DNA of 40,101 nt from Flavobacteriales bacterium (GTDB lineage Bacteria > Bacteroidota > Bacteroidia > Flavobacteriales_D > Sanyastnellaceae). The notes beneath the pieces were generated by a model that was not told the DNA's origin, ran no database searches, and was given only the letters and a program-made list of their open reading frames with translations. Below, one piece after another: positions 3,248-23,416 of this stretch. The number at the start of each line of letters is the position of its first letter. Position 1 is the first letter of the stretch. The stretch is taken from positions 1 to 40,101 of the forward strand of contig CANIAA010000003.1 in the NCBI GenBank assembly GCA_947465255.1, read 5' to 3'. Made by a program: the position numbers and the translations under genes.

Positions 3248-4567
3248 ATGAGCATTCCAACAGCCGACAAGGTTACGACCTACAAAGTGAAAGACATGAG
3301 CCTCGCAGAATGGGGCCGCAAAGAAATCAAATTGGCCGAAGCAGAAATGCCCGGATTGATGAGCTTGCGCTCTGAGTTCGGTCCTTCTAAACCTCTCGCA
3401 GGTGCGCGCGTTGCAGGATGTCTGCACATGACCATTCAAACCGCTGTACTCATCGAAACACTCGTTGAACTCGGCGCTGAAGTGAGCTGGAGCTCATGCA
3501 ACATCTTCTCTACGCAAGACCACGCTGCTGCTGCTATCGCTGCTGCCGGAATTCCAGTTTATGCTTGGAAGGGAATGAACCACGAAGAATTCGACTGGTG
3601 CATCGAGCAAACGCTTCATGCGTTCAGCGGTGGCCAGGCTCTCAATATGATCCTCGACGATGGTGGTGACCTTACCAACATGGTATTCGACAAATATCCT
3701 GAGCTCGTTGCCGGTATCCGCGGTATCTCAGAAGAAACTACAACCGGAGTTCTACGCTTGTATGAGCGCGAAAAGAATGGCACTTTGTTGTTGCCTGCCA
3801 TCAACATCAACGACTCAGTTACCAAGAGCAAATTCGATAACAAATACGGCTGCCGCGAATCACTCGTAGACGCTATCCGTCGTGCTACCGACCTTATGAT
3901 GGCCGGTAAAGTGGCTGTTGTTGCCGGTTTCGGTGACGTAGGAAAAGGATCTGCCGATTCATTGCGCCATGCAGGTGTGCGTGTAATGGTGTCTGAAATC
4001 GACCCAATCTGCGCATTGCAAGCAGCTATGGAAGGTTATGAAGTGAAGAAAATGGACAACGCCATTCCGGAAGCAGATATCGTGGTAACTGCAACAGGTA
4101 ACCACAACATCATCGTGGACCGTCACTTCAAAAACATGAAGCACAACGCGGTAGTTTGCAACATCGGTCACTTCGATAACGAAATCGATATGGCTTGGTT
4201 GAACACGAACTACGGCAACACCAAAGACACCATCAAGCCTCAGGTCGACAAATACTCAATCGGCGACAAAGACATCATCGTATTGGCTGAAGGCCGCTTG
4301 GTAAACCTCGGCTGTGCAACCGGTCACCCATCATTCGTAATGAGCGCATCGTTTACCAACCAAACAATTGCTCAATTGGAAATCTGGGAAAACCATAAGA
4401 ACTACGAAAACAAGGTATACGTTCTCCCAAAGCAACTTGATGAGAAGGTTGCACGCTTGCACCTTGCCAAAGTGAACGTCGAACTCGAAACCCTCACACC
4501 AAGCCAAGCCGAATACATCGGCGTGAAAGTGGAAGGACCGTATAAGTCGGACACGTACAGGTATTAA
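3248..4567 (+). CDS. ahcY: Adenosylhomocysteinase
   Basis: 439 aa with SAHase landmarks: [78 protein letters not shown]-terminal YKSDTYRY. Confidence 0.98.
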
Positions 4568-4569
4568 TT

Positions 4570-4659
4570 ACTAGTGACTAGTGACTAGTGACTAATTTGT
4601 GAAGGATCGACCTTTACATCATTAGTCACTAGTCATTTTACATTTGTCATTAGTCATTA
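4570..4659. repeat. Intergenic hairpin repeat, family A copy 1: (ACTAGTG)3 arm, 39-bp core, (ATTAGTC)-type arm
   Basis: Heptads ACTAGTG at 4570-4576, 4577-4583, 4584-4590; core AATTTGTGAAGGATCGACCTTTACATCATTAGTCACTAG (4594-4632) recurs at 5202-5240 with 2 differences; right arm is complementary to the left heptads. Confidence 0.85.
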
Positions 4660-4739: not shown

Positions 4740-5171
4740 ATGGTTTCCTCTAGCATTTTTCAATCATTGGTGAATGAGTATGCGGGGTATACGTTCCTAG
4801 TGGGCTTCCTGCTCGTCATTGGTTCGTTGGGTGCGGCACGTTTGTTCGCCAAAGCAGATCAGCCCTGGGTAGCTGCGTTAGTTCCTGTTTGGAATGTGGT
4901 TGTTGTTCTGAAAATGGTAGGTCGGCCGGTAAGCCACCTGGCGTTTTTTCTTGTTCCTTTTTACAACATTTACTTCTTCTTCCGTCTCTGTGTCGAATTG
5001 GCGCAATCGTTCGGAAAGTACTCGTTGATAGACTACATCTTGGTATGTGTGTTCAATGTGTTTTATGTCTTGAATCTCGCATTGGCCTATAATGAAGAAT
5101 ATCAGGGCCCGGTCTACGGTGTTGATCGTGATCACCGCGAACATGCCGGTGATGCGCTAGCCGCAGGCTAG
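4740..5171 (+). CDS. DUF5684-like small integral membrane protein
   Basis: 143 aa; several hydrophobic helices and the pattern ADQPWVAALVPVWNVVVVLKMVGRP...FFLVPFYNIYFFFRLCVELAQSFGK typical of DUF5684. Stop codon lies inside repeat family A copy 2. Confidence 0.7.
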   Translation: MVSSSIFQSLVNEYAGYTFLVGFLLVIGSLGAARLFAKADQPWVAALVPVWNVVVVLKMVGRPVSHLAFFLVPFYNIYFFFRLCVELAQSFGKYSLIDYILVCVFNVFYVLNLALAYNEEYQGPVYGVDRDHREHAGDALAAG

Positions 5172-5274
5172 TGGCTAGTGGCTAGTGGCGAGTGGCTAGT
5201 TAATTTGTGAAGGACCGACCTTTGCATCATTAGTCACTAGCCATTAGCCACTAGTCATTTGTCATTAGTCATTT
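5167..5274. repeat. Intergenic hairpin repeat, family A copy 2: GCTAGTG-type heptads x5, 39-bp core, complementary heptad arm
   Basis: GCTAGTG at 5167-5187 (x3), GCGAGTG 5188-5194, GCTAGTT 5195-5201; core AATTTGTGAAGGACCGACCTTTGCATCATTAGTCACTAG at 5202-5240, same orientation as copy 1. Confidence 0.85.
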
Positions 5275-6899: not shown

Positions 6900-6966
6900 T
6901 TAACCGCAGAGGCGCAAAGTTCGCAGAGATTTTCACTCTTTGCGAACTTTGCGCCTCTGCGGTTAA
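6900..6966. repeat. Repeat family C hairpin copy 1
   Basis: TTAACCGCAGAGGCGCAAAGTTCGCAGAGA / TCTTTGCGAACTTTGCGCCTCTGCGGTTAA: 30-bp stem with one mismatch, 7-nt loop. Confidence 0.92.
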
Positions 6967-7163: not shown

Positions 7164-7226
7164 TTAACCGCAGAGGCGCAGAGGAAGCAGAAAAAAACTC
7201 TGCATACTCTGCGCCTCTGCGGTTAA
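7164..7226. repeat. Repeat family C hairpin copy 2 (left flank of GxxExxY gene)
   Basis: TTAACCGCAGAGGCGCAGAGGAAGCAGAAAAAAACTCTGCATACTCTGCGCCTCTGCGGTTAA; 20-bp terminal arms are exactly complementary. Confidence 0.93.
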
Positions 7227-7251
7227 TAAAAACACCTCAACCAAAAAAATA

Positions 7252-7635
7252 CTATTCCTCTAGCCCATTGACCACCCGACGAATACCATTCTTCAGAATC
7301 AGGGAATTGAAGTTGATGAGCAAACCCATTCGAAAGTCGCCTTGCTTGAGATAACTGAGCAACTGGGCAAAGTGGATGTCGTTCAGCTCGGATACTGACT
7401 TAGTTTCGACAACCAAACGCTTCTCCACCAACAAGTCCATTCGAAACCCGCATTCCAACTTCACTCCGCGATACTTAAGTGGCATGGCAACCTCTTTCTC
7501 AACACACAGTCCGAGTTGAGTAATTTCATAACATAAACACTCCTGATAAGCCTTCTCCAACAGTCCCGGACCTAGTTCCCGGTGAACCTTCATGGCTGCA
7601 CCCAATACTGAATAACTAAGTTCATTGTACGTCAT
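7252..7635 (-). CDS. GxxExxY protein (PDDEXK_3-like)
   Basis: MTYNELSYSVLGAAMKVHRELGPGLLEKAYQECLCYEI...EKEVAMPLKYRGVKLECGFRMDLLVEKRLVVETKSVSELNDIHFAQLLSYLK: GPGLLEKAY is the GxxExxY motif; D..LVE...VVETKS resembles a PDDEXK core. Start could also be 7647 or 7680. Confidence 0.9.
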   Translation of the reverse strand: MTYNELSYSVLGAAMKVHRELGPGLLEKAYQECLCYEITQLGLCVEKEVAMPLKYRGVKLECGFRMDLLVEKRLVVETKSVSELNDIHFAQLLSYLKQGDFRMGLLINFNSLILKNGIRRVVNGLEE

Positions 7636-7709
7636 TTTTAGCTGCAACATTCGGCCTTTAGACAATGGCATGCAACCCATAAATTATAAGAATATATGCC
7701 GTTTATTCC

Positions 7710-7771
7710 TTAACCGCAGAGGCGCAGAGTATGCAGAGTTTTTTCTGCTATCTCTGCGCCTCTGCGGTTAA
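7710..7771. repeat. Repeat family C hairpin copy 3 (right flank of GxxExxY gene, inverted relative to copy 2)
   Basis: TTAACCGCAGAGGCGCAGAGTATGCAGAGTTTTTTCTGCTATCTCTGCGCCTCTGCGGTTAA; nearly identical to the reverse complement of copy 2 (one T-run length change and two substitutions). Confidence 0.93.
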
Positions 7772-19618: not shown

Positions 19619-22600
19619 TTAGTTAGGACAGATAGTACCGTAAGCTGCGATGAATATCAGCAAGTCTGATACACCCACAAAGCCGTTGCCGTCCAAGTCA
19701 GCCGGACAATCGCTGATAGCACCACTGAAATCGCAAGAACCATCGTCAACCGCTGCAGTTGGATCATAGTTAGCAGCAATTTCGTACGTACAACCCGAGC
19801 AAGAAGAGAAATCACACAAGGTGCAATCTCCAACCGTTGCAGCAGGATCGTAGTTACAAGCTACCGGAATAGTACAACCAGGGATACAGCTTACACCCGC
19901 AGTGCTGAAGCCAACACCTGCAGGATCATTAGCCAAACCGTTCAAGATTCCACCGGTAACACCGGTAAGTGTCCAGTTGATTTCTCCATCGAAGGTTCCA
20001 CCACCTACGATGATAGTAAAGCATCCGTCACCCAAACAGAATGACGCAGTTCCGTTACCACCGGTTGGAAGACCAGCAGAACCCACTGCATTACCTGAGG
20101 CATCCAAAATCGTTGCGGTAGCGCCGTTCCAACCATCACCGAACGTATCGTTCATAATGAGTGTTACACAGTTCTCAAAGCAGCACTGAGTAGCGTCGTT
20201 GATAGTAGCATCGGCATCGTAGTTACAAGCCGTTACATCCGTACAACCTGCACATGACGTGAATTCGCAAGAACCATCGTCTGAAGTAGCCGCAGCATCG
20301 TAGTTACAAGCTGTTGCATCTGTGCAACCGCAAACGCCTGCGCCAATAGTGAATGAGAAAGTTCCATCGCCATTCGGAGCAATTCCCGAAAGAATCACGT
20401 CACCGGCAGCATCAGAGATTTCCCAGCCAATCTCACCGGTGAAAAATCCACCGCCTACAGTCATATTGTAGCAACCGTCAGCCAAGCAAATAATGTCGAA
20501 ACCAACAGATTCACCATCGGTGCACTGAGCGTTATCAAGATCACCCTCAGCTACTACCGTTCCTGCCAAATCAGTGATCGAATAGGTGTTGCCGTTCCAA
20601 CCATCACCAAACGTATCATTCATGTCGAAACGATATGCGTTTTGACCTGCAGGACAAGTAACACATGAGAAGAATTCGCAGCTACCATTGTCGACGTTTG
20701 CAGCCGCATTGTAGTTACAAGCACATTCGTCTTGACAGCCTTGAACAACAGGCTCACACGTGTACGAAAGTGTGAAGCTTCCTTCTGTCAAATCATCTAT
20801 TCCGTCGCCATTCGTATCAACACCACCAGCAGTGATGTATACGTAGTACTGAGTTCCTACAGTTGAAACGAAACCAACAGAGGCGTCATCACCATCGAAG
20901 AAACCGCAACCGGCATCAGTAGCATCATCGTCTTCAGAGATTACGCACGTGTAAGGACCTGCGCAACCAGTAGCAGAGCTAACTACAGTGATACGTGAGT
21001 CGATAGGTGAACCACAAGTGCTCAGATTGATGAATTGACCATCACCTACAAATGAATACCATACACCGATATCGCCGGCGCCTGCAGGACAAACGTTCGG
21101 TGCACCTGTATTCGTAGCAGCTCCTGTTGAACCTGCAACGTCAACACCACAAACAAGCGGAGTTGCAGTTGAGCAAAGGTCGTTCGGTGTTACAGCACCG
21201 CATGACACGTATTCGCAAGAACCGTCGTCGAGTGTGCAATCAGCACAGAAGTTACAAGCTGTAGCATCAATACAACCTGCGTTAGCCAGAGCAACGTTAA
21301 GAACGAAATCACCACAGTTGATTGGGTCTGAAGTAGAAACACAGATATAGTAGTTTGTGTTAGCATTCAATCCCAAACCAAATTCCAATGAGTTGAAGAT
21401 GAAGCCATCCAATGGGTCACCATTGAAACCTACGCCACCAACAAACGGAGTAAGTGCTTCGCAACCTGCGCCACCTTCAAAGACACCGATACCAACATCA
21501 GTACCATCAGCTGCATCAGCACCCTGACCTGTACCGTTGAAGAAAGAAATATCCAATGCAGTAAAATCAGCTGAATTGATTACGTACCAGATACCGTATT
21601 CAGTTCCAAAACCGGCCCACTCACCCATATCATCATCCGGATTAGCGCAACAAAGGTTACCGGGGAAGTCAACACCTGTAGGCAATGGAAGAGCCGTAGC
21701 ACAAGCGTCGTTAATCGCAGGGTTATCGCATTCCACGCAAGTCATTGCCAATTCGAAATCGAGACCTGTACCGAAAGTACCAAACTCTGATACCAGCACA
21801 TAATATGCGAAACCGTTGATGGCAGTGAAAGAGATACTTGAAAGCAAACCTGCTTCACAACCATCGTCATTTTGAGTAACACAAACAGGTGTTGTGCAAT
21901 CGCCTGTGAAAACGTGAATCTTCGAATCACCACCTGCGCTGCCGCATGTTGAAAGGTTCACCAAATCACCGGTACCGATGAAAGTGTACCACACACCGGG
22001 TGCAGTGATAGGATTTTCTGCATCACAACTAACTGCTGAAGGATCAAGCGTTGCATTGATCGTTGTTCCGCTAACAGTAACATCACAACCAATTGGTGTA
22101 GCGTTTACGCATAGGTCGTTAGACGGTGGGCAAACGCAAGAACCATCATCGGTAGTAGCATTAGCATTATAGTTGTTGCAACCGGAGTCTGTGCAGCCGG
22201 GAATATCGCACGTAGCACCTCCCCATGGGAAACCAATGCTTCCTCCTGCACCACCTTCAGCCACCACTGTACCGGAAATACTTACGATTTCCCAAGAAAT
22301 CTGAGTTGGCTGAAAACCTTCCGTCGTAATCATGGTGTAGCAGCCTGGCGACAAGCACTCGCTGTAAGAACCAGAACCACCACCTGGCAAGTCACCGGTA
22401 TCAACCAAAGCACCTGAACCGGCATCTACCAGTGTCCAAGTAGCACCGCCCCAACCGTTGTTGCCGGAGTCAAACATATTAACCGTATAGAAAGAAGTAC
22501 CACCTGAACAGGTAATACAGCTACCATCATCGCACTGCGCAGCCGGATCGTAATTGTTAGCCCCCATATCTGTGCAACCTGAAGTGAAACCACCCAAGGC

Positions 22601-23416
22601 GATAATGGCGGTCTCAGGACCATTTCCATCCAATAAAGTACCGGTAGCTTCAACGTTTCCGTTTTCGTCTGTAATTGTAAACGCGTTACCGTTCCATCCA
22701 TCACCAAACGTATCGTTCATAATGAATTGGAAACCACAACCGGGAGTAACGCAGATAGTTTCGTTGTAAGCTACGCCACCACCTTCGGCAATAAGGTTCC
22801 CTGCAGCGTCGAGCAGTTGCCATTCTGTTTCGCCAATGAATGCTCCACCACCAACGGTGAGTGTGCGACAAGCACCAAAGCAACATGTACCATCGTCGTT
22901 GATCGCGTCTGGAGAGAAGTTACAAGCCGAAGGATCTGTGCAACCATCGGTATCAAGTTCGCATGTAACCGCGAATGTGAAGTTACCTTCGTTGACAGTG
23001 TAACCTCCTGCCCGTACCAAGTAGGTTGTACCTCCAACCATGGTAAAAGTAACTTGAGAAGTCAGAAAACCTCCGAAGTCATCATTACCTACAACACATA
23101 CCAAAGATCCACAAGACCCCGTATAGACATGAATCTTGGTGTCATAATCCGACCCTGCCAATGACATCGTGCATGTTCCACCTGCAGGCGCAGTAAATGA
23201 GTACCAGTATTGACCCGCAGTGCCAACTGATGTTACACACGTGGGCGCACCTGATGTGGCATTGTCATTTGCAACGCCTGTGGTGGCGCCAAAAACTGTT
23301 TCACCACACGTAATCACCGTAGGTGAGTCGCATGTGAACTGAGCCGAAGCAACACCCCAACAGAGCGAAGCAACAACCGTCAAAAACGAACCTAATCTCG
23401 TAAAAGTTTTCATCAA
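19619..23416 (-). CDS. Large secreted Cys-rich repeat protein with dockerin-like C-terminus
   Basis: Signal peptide; about nine GCTDxxACNYDxxAxxDDGSC-type units; four (M)NDTFGDGWNG-type domains; PPC-like blocks (NDLC..ATP...GVWYTF.G.G....LSTCGS); C-terminus CPADLDGNGFVGVSDLLIFIAAYGTICPN. Confidence 0.88.
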   Translation of the reverse strand: MMKTFTRLGSFLTVVASLCWGVASAQFTCDSPTVITCGETVFGATTGVANDNATSGAPTCVTSVGTAGQYWYSFTAPAGGTCTMSLAGSDYDTKIHVYTGSCGSLVCVVGNDDFGGFLTSQVTFTMVGGTTYLVRAGGYTVNEGNFTFAVTCELDTDGCTDPSACNFSPDAINDDGTCCFGACRTLTVGGGAFIGETEWQLLDAAGNLIAEGGGVAYNETICVTPGCGFQFIMNDTFGDGWNGNAFTITDENGNVEATGTLLDGNGPETAIIALGGFTSGCTDMGANNYDPAAQCDDGSCITCSGGTSFYTVNMFDSGNNGWGGATWTLVDAGSGALVDTGDLPGGGSGSYSECLSPGCYTMITTEGFQPTQISWEIVSISGTVVAEGGAGGSIGFPWGGATCDIPGCTDSGCNNYNANATTDDGSCVCPPSNDLCVNATPIGCDVTVSGTTINATLDPSAVSCDAENPITAPGVWYTFIGTGDLVNLSTCGSAGGDSKIHVFTGDCTTPVCVTQNDDGCEAGLLSSISFTAINGFAYYVLVSEFGTFGTGLDFELAMTCVECDNPAINDACATALPLPTGVDFPGNLCCANPDDDMGEWAGFGTEYGIWYVINSADFTALDISFFNGTGQGADAADGTDVGIGVFEGGAGCEALTPFVGGVGFNGDPLDGFIFNSLEFGLGLNANTNYYICVSTSDPINCGDFVLNVALANAGCIDATACNFCADCTLDDGSCEYVSCGAVTPNDLCSTATPLVCGVDVAGSTGAATNTGAPNVCPAGAGDIGVWYSFVGDGQFINLSTCGSPIDSRITVVSSATGCAGPYTCVISEDDDATDAGCGFFDGDDASVGFVSTVGTQYYVYITAGGVDTNGDGIDDLTEGSFTLSYTCEPVVQGCQDECACNYNAAANVDNGSCEFFSCVTCPAGQNAYRFDMNDTFGDGWNGNTYSITDLAGTVVAEGDLDNAQCTDGESVGFDIICLADGCYNMTVGGGFFTGEIGWEISDAAGDVILSGIAPNGDGTFSFTIGAGVCGCTDATACNYDAAATSDDGSCEFTSCAGCTDVTACNYDADATINDATQCCFENCVTLIMNDTFGDGWNGATATILDASGNAVGSAGLPTGGNGTASFCLGDGCFTIIVGGGTFDGEINWTLTGVTGGILNGLANDPAGVGFSTAGVSCIPGCTIPVACNYDPAATVGDCTLCDFSSCSGCTYEIAANYDPTAAVDDGSCDFSGAISDCPADLDGNGFVGVSDLLIFIAAYGTICPN

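Follow-up and report, generated by a model that had tools for sequence, protein, structure and literature searches.

GxxExxY nuclease genes between cognate inverted arrays: a candidate class of minimal mobile element

Several described systems resemble parts of the unit considered here, a GxxExxY gene (PDDEXK_3, PF13366) between inverted repeats. REP-RAYT systems share with it a single enzyme gene between inverted short hairpins, many solo hairpins, and repeats that co-vary with the enzyme; however, the GxxExxY enzyme is a PD-(D/E)XK protein (PF13366) and not an HUH Y1 enzyme, its ends are arrays of 8-11-bp units in which no GTAG/CGTC tag was seen, and GxxExxY paralogues in one genome carry different array types, with solo units in the planctomycete G355 that span 90-260 bp and have interiors. 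Classical IS elements and MITEs have in common with it the short one-gene unit, inverted repeats at its termini, derivatives that lack the gene but keep the ends, and inversion (PMC3004938), but the GxxExxY unit has no DDE, HUH, serine, or tyrosine transposase and no detected target duplication (≥3 bp), and its ends are degenerate tandem arrays. The homing endonuclease I-Ssp6803I and free-standing homing genes are likewise small single-domain PD-(D/E)XK genes exchanged at one site apart from their flanks; GxxExxY genes, in contrast, lie outside introns and inteins, are boxed by cognate inverted arrays, and have many non-autonomous copies. Rpn proteins (YhgA-like, PF04754), although members of another Pfam family, are also PD-(D/E)XK enzymes tied to DNA mobilisation (PMC5350276). 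Cas4/RecB nucleases show the same active-site layout, H...D...ExK...QxxxY, and include the nearest PDB folds (SSO0001 and lambda exonuclease, both weak matches), but GxxExxY proteins are about 125 aa long, have no conserved iron-sulphur cysteines and no CRISPR or helicase context, and possess an extra invariant GxxExxY helix.

Being REP-RAYT-like without the HUH enzyme, IS-like in its ends without transposase or target duplication, and homing-like once but with gene-less copies, the unit was rated categorically new against the open-access literature searched. In that literature, with subscription papers and preprints mostly outside the search, GxxExxY proteins receive two passing mentions with no function given, and six literal array strings had no match among 5.39 million open papers. 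To our knowledge, no boxing arrays have been reported for Rpn genes, and we know of no mobile element driven by this enzyme type alone.

The window locus and its protein

The window, by which we mean the whole analysed stretch of 40,101 nucleotides, contains the following features at the locus:

6900-6966, no strand assigned: hairpin A, with TTAACCGCAGAGGCGCAAAG arms, a solo copy upstream of the unit
7164-7226 (63 nt), no strand assigned: hairpin B, an array pair 3' of the GxxExxY gene
7252-7680, minus strand: GxxExxY / PDDEXK_3 gene; the ORF has 142 aa, with the probable start at Met16, giving 7252-7635
7710-7771 (62 nt), no strand assigned: hairpin C, an array pair 5' of the gene and an inverted copy of hairpin B
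7164-7771, minus strand: the unit of hairpin B, GxxExxY gene, and hairpin C

The first-pass annotation had described hairpins of 63 and 62 bp around one GxxExxY ORF and had taken them for true inverted copies; on direct reading the coordinates are exact and the same differences are found, the reverse complement of hairpin B departing from hairpin C in the length of a T-run (7 vs 6) and in two adjacent substitutions (TC vs AT). All three hairpins are perfect or near-perfect and, folded as ssDNA, reach z-scores of -11 to -14, with hairpins B and C at -30.9 and -29.9 kcal/mol (z = -11.4 and -11.6; 0 of 200 shuffles equally good). Six copies of the half-site TTAACCGCAGAGGCGCAGAG (≤3 mismatches) were counted in the window, where 0.00 are expected. 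Comparison with known RNAs gave sub-threshold matches only, mostly to miRNA hairpin models and all below gathering scores. The neighbours of the unit, read from their translations, we take to be an acyltransferase-like gene and a tyrosyl-tRNA synthetase gene.

The family assignment made earlier is borne out, as the ORF covers the whole of both PF13366 (2.7e-40, 137.8 bits, cut-off 22) and TIGR04256 GxxExxY (3e-41, 140.4 bits, cut-off 35); Pfam reports PDDEXK_3 alone in the boxed gene, and no known transposase domain. The first 15 codons of the ORF are probably non-coding and Met16 the real start, because the orthologue in the congener G417 has ATA instead of a start codon at the first position, and the Met that is conserved lies at position 16. 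D82, E92, and K94 are invariant in two alignments, of 20 and 26 members; E42 of the GxxExxY motif, D82, E92-x-K94, and Q106xxxY110 are kept in all aligned members, and H33 in nearly all. The order H-D-ExK-QxxxY is typical of RecB/Cas4 nucleases. An AF2 model of the window protein is confident (pLDDT 88.9), and the nearest PDB folds found with it by Foldseek, Cas4 SSO0001 and lambda exonuclease, match weakly (E of 0.01); the PD-(D/E)XK homing endonuclease structure 2ost is a further weak match. Sequence searches of the PDB found no relatives; viral relatives with a similar fold carry PD-(D/E)XK nuclease annotation. Alignment and model together suggest for the GxxExxY protein a small PD-(D/E)XK nuclease, RecB/Cas4-like, whose active site is invariant.

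Inward arrays and their match to the gene

How often GxxExxY genes adjoin inverted repeats compared with other genes, a measure raised in the first-pass annotation, was assessed at 114 GxxExxY loci from about 11 phyla with one fixed definition of a boxed gene (≥2 units within 45 bp), using as controls 798 genes from the same loci, of which 329 were small (<250 aa). Boxing on both sides was found at 61.4% of the GxxExxY loci, against 0.1% of all controls and 0% of the small ones, and arrays on at least one side at 90%, against 5.9% and 5.5%, respectively; several of nine loci scored negative have arrays of other unit types (e.g., L075 and L086). Oriented flanks were read for 40 Bacteroidota genes and for 80 named loci from Bacteroidota, Planctomycetota, Acidobacteriota, Verrucomicrobiota, Chloroflexota, Cyanobacteria, Chlamydiota, Proteobacteria, Methanothrix, and others. 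In the common plan, short units such as ACCACAGAGGCACAGAGACACAGAG form an array directed into the gene, with an inverted array on the other side, a unit period of 8-11 bp, and a 3' inverted array that begins a median of 4 bp past the stop codon. Inward-facing arrays are far commoner than outward-facing ones, and the 7-mer CACAGAG is present in 40 of 80 inward flanks (0.6 expected) and in 7 outward flanks. A strict search for full hairpins around relatives of the gene found almost nothing, because most ends are arrays and not full hairpins; the hairpin-gene-hairpin architecture proposed at first holds in the window but not as the general form, in which each end is a single inward array.

Motif-free alignment of each 5' arm with the reverse complement of its own 3' arm gave a median of 15, compared with 9 for arms of other loci (P = 1.5e-28) and 8.5 for control-gene flanks (P = 1.7e-38). 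Genomes with many paralogues (14 in G297, 11 in G377, 7 in G236, and 6 in G325) have most of them boxed by their own unit type, among them CGCAAAG, CGCCGATGAA, CGCCAAG, CACGAAG, CGCAGATT, CACGGAA, ACACGAAT, and others, and within one genome a paralogue's own arms score 18 vs 8 for the arms of other paralogues (P = 7e-19). Across genomes, proteins of higher identity have more similar arrays (Mantel r = 0.28, 0 of 999 permutations, pairs >70% identical left out), a trend that comes partly from shared descent, an objection to which the within-genome test of paralogues is immune. The arrays are matched, element-specific ends, in the pattern of a paired enzyme and end. Genomes carry several array types each, as was seen when solo repeats were compared with the type of the genome's own GxxExxY gene. 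As a separate observation, several genus g8 species share a syntenic GxxExxY locus (L379, L381, L382, L385, L389, and L390) whose arrays have longer, spaced units, e.g., CGCAGAGATTCACAAAG; these arrays differ between species and could be used to trace the co-evolution of array and enzyme.

Gain, loss, inversion, and exchange of the unit

Gene and arrays are gained and lost as a unit between conserved neighbours, invert, and pass between species at one site. Empty sites in close relatives, which the first-pass annotation had advised looking for, were seen in genus g58 and in the window's own genus. Four species of genus g58 have the unit, ACCACAGAGGGCACAAAGG, gene, and CTTTGTGAACTTTGTGGTT, between two conserved genes; a fifth (G038) has a decayed remnant, and in three species without the unit the conserved neighbours are 0-3 bp apart. 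Between G054 and G026, dS is 0.14 for the element gene but 0.85 and 1.25 for the two flanking genes, with synonymous differences at 9/70 in the element vs 140/250 in the flanks (P = 4e-11, one site), so the element, and not its neighbours, was exchanged between these species, as in homing. Two further observations concern single loci of this group: the gene at L295:2252-2602 (G163) is a mosaic, its first 250 bp being 94-100% identical to G054 and the remainder 66-78%, and that at L296:1070-1420 (G026) has the damaged motif EPGLLELAD instead of GPGLLESAY, so that decay may have begun there.

At the window's locus, the gene stands in the opposite orientation in the congener G417 and in the same orientation in G414, where hairpin B is reduced to its left half; G413 has no gene and one solo hairpin where B-gene-C stands, and the more distant G415 has neither gene nor hairpins. 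Hairpin A has a counterpart at the same place in the congeners G417 and G413, which is absent in G415. A second orientation switch separates G089 from G263. For IS elements, inversion between terminal inverted repeats is documented (PMC3004938). Apart from genus g58, most syntenic pairs appear to descend vertically, so that the unit moves infrequently or did so long ago. In the search for target-site duplications, direct repeats of ≥3 bp that abut the unit occur in 6.8% of cases vs 5.4% of shuffled ones, not above chance; instead, the junctions share an inverted outer TTRA, and a duplication, if there is one, may be of 2 bp or a palindromic TTAA.

Gene-less elements were sampled in G355, which has 484 half-sites vs two PF13366 genes. 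Sampled pairs of 90-260 bp are homologous in their ends and, in several cases, in their interiors, which are not gene remnants; long alignments reach some 20-25 bp outward from the first unit of the array, and the ends are those of the genome's GxxExxY element (GGATGTCACCACGGAGACACGGAG). By these sequence features, the G355 copies are dispersed elements that behave as non-autonomous and MITE-like. Most of the gene-less elements at L242-L252 and L259 also have an extra palindrome of the CTTCGCCTTCGGCGAAG or GCTCGCCTTCGGCGAGC type just outside the arrays, which belongs either to the element or to the target.

The reading we prefer, with a probability of about 0.68, is that a GxxExxY gene and its two inward arrays form a minimal mobile element of ~0.5 kb, in which a lone nuclease would act on its cognate terminal arrays, the catalytic step being one that we infer. 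The nuclease would bind its own array, at about one unit per DNA turn, or a hairpin extruded as a single strand, and would then nick or cut at the array, after which host repair or replication might copy the unit, either to a new site or to a homologous one, by cut-and-repair resembling homing; the data hold signs of copying both to new sites and to the homologous empty site. Recombination between such inverted or palindromic ends would yield inversion and deletion alike, flipping the gene or removing it to leave a solo hairpin, which could still be acted on in trans. Beside the boxing, the cognate ends, the gene-dependent repeats, and the history of the unit, purifying selection on the gene and the conserved active site also favour this reading. 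Weighing against it are the lack of a detected target duplication (≥3 bp), the apparent vertical descent of most syntenic pairs, two Planctomycetota genomes with repeats and no gene detected (G362 and G350, below), and the weakness of the Cas4 match; moreover, chromosomal inversion or deletion between repeats can result from host recombination alone.

Among the alternatives, a free-standing homing endonuclease fares best, if still unlikely: it would cut the empty site, homologous repair would copy the unit, the arrays would be binding or autoregulatory sites, and solo hairpins would be scars of gene loss. Such an enzyme would suit the existence of PD-(D/E)XK homing endonucleases (I-Ssp6803I, and the weak match to 2ost), the swap of the g58 element from one species to another at a site whose flanks did not change, the single hairpin of G413 at the gene site of its relatives, and the decayed remnant in G038, but it leaves unexplained both the hundreds of dispersed gene-less half-sites of G355 with their homologous non-gene interiors and the paralogues at many unrelated sites, each with different cognate arrays.

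Considerably less probable is a regulatory role of the arrays in the host, as terminators, attenuators, or operators that control a domesticated, non-moving nuclease. The short distance from stop codon to 3' array, the stability of the hairpins, the vertical inheritance of some loci, and purifying selection on the gene (dN/dS 0.03-0.16 in genus g58) agree with such a role; sites that are empty down to gaps of 0-3 bp, genes inverted relative to their neighbours, many gene-less copies elsewhere, and array types that differ among paralogues of one genome do not.

Repeat number, wider significance, and a possible parallel class

Gene-less copies with the same end type (solo hairpins, MITE-like) pile up essentially only in gene-bearing genomes. 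Roughly one in two of the Bacteroidota and Planctomycetota genomes sampled has a GxxExxY gene, PF13366 being found in 151 of 297 Bacteroidota (phylum taken from named relatives). Across these 297, the pattern AACCRCRRAG-N1-5-CRCRRAG has 949 copies in gene-positive and 34 in gene-negative genomes, and at least five repeats occur in 57/151 gene-positive vs 0/146 gene-negative genomes (P = 3e-20), a statistic that, like the next, ignores kinship within the phylum. Among 99 Planctomycetota, at least ten repeats occur in 23/48 gene-positive vs 2/51 gene-negative genomes (P = 3e-7). The two exceptions, G362 and G350, with 165 and 60 CRCRRAG half-sites and no PF13366 gene detected, could have lost the gene, possess a divergent enzyme, or be incompletely assembled; G362 additionally has CACGAAT-type arrays.

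REP hairpins are classically linked to RAYTs (PMC2817692, PMC3116915), and the hairpins could on that precedent be REP or MITE sequences moved by another enzyme, a RAYT/Y1 HUH protein or an IS transposase, with the GxxExxY genes as passengers. The window's genome (a 2.45-Mb draft, 77% complete) indeed has one Y1_Tnp gene, but this is located elsewhere and has none of these hairpins at its flanks. In Bacteroidota genomes with Y1_Tnp, 53/130 with GxxExxY are repeat-rich vs 0/80 without it, and in those lacking Y1_Tnp, 4/21 vs 0/66; Y1_Tnp without GxxExxY has no effect on repeats. A RAYT as the driver of the repeats was rejected on this stratified table, and a passenger would have no need of an own matched array pair for each paralogue, so that we disfavour this explanation as a slim one.

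The window's genome has 48 half-sites (control pattern 1) and a single PF13366 gene, from which most hairpins lie far away, an arrangement as in REP-RAYT and not bound to the gene; on this point the first-pass annotation needs correction. Its core idea, a joint spread of the gene with its hairpins in a manner comparable to REP/RAYT, is supported by the controlled cross-phylum boxing, gene-dependent repeat number, empty sites, inversions, and one-site exchange.

The least probable reading, an anti-phage or toxin-type nuclease whose arrays merely help shuttling between genomes, can draw on Rpn, PD-(D/E)XK proteins once termed transposase-like and later reported to act in toxin-antitoxin defence (PMC5350276, PMC10327210), and on a PADLOC Cas4 profile match at 0.0086, but no PADLOC match is strong, relatives occur in 0 of 50,697 phage and 8 of 72,556 plasmid records, and the gene sits among housekeeping genes with no partner gene. 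Phage or plasmid cargo was rejected on the same near-absence. Two loci are in cultivable hosts: L378:783-1211, in a fabD-fabG neighbourhood of a Sphingomonas replicon, and L377:789-1163, between radA and an FAD-protein gene of Bacteroides finegoldii.

Taken as a lone nuclease with cognate ends, GxxExxY is rather probably an unrecognised and very widespread class of minimal mobile element, a RecB/Cas4-like nuclease with cognate terminal arrays, that accounts for many short intergenic repeats. If so, it would explain the repeat types CACAGAG, CGCAAAG, CACGAAG, CGCAGATT, and ACACGAAT of Bacteroidota, Planctomycetota, Acidobacteriota, Proteobacteria, and Cyanobacteria, and would give a large set of unexplained intergenic repeats a proposed origin. 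The pairing of gene and array offers an immediate candidate substrate for each GxxExxY protein, and matched pairs in one genome would amount to a ready specificity code in which each of many nucleases corresponds to a different DNA word.

Genes for four-helix-bundle proteins (23S IVS type) were likewise observed between inverted arrays, with units of ~7 bp such as GGTCGGA, AGTCGCA, AATTCGT, and AGTTACC (L140:5211-5537, L089:6489-6842, L371:483-890, L372:471-890, L373:462-860, and L375:507-863). These arrays often begin near the start and stop codons; at L374 and L376 they look direct and not inverted. Together, such genes and their heptamer arrays may form another class of element boxed by arrays, parallel to the first, to be compared with the intergenic TAACTGA heptamers (PMC4679880) and the Coxiella IVS (PMC4990558). 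Similar arrays of a heptamer-like kind (TAGTGAC/ACTAGTC), with both inverted and direct copies, lie in the window at 4566-4659 and 5170-5267 around a 143-aa ORF (4740-5171), which was rejected as a four-helix-bundle gene, its product being a different, hydrophobic protein. Elsewhere in the window, a large ORF on the minus strand (19619-23416) contains many related internal repeats of 40-70 bp and possibly encodes a repetitive, secreted or surface protein.
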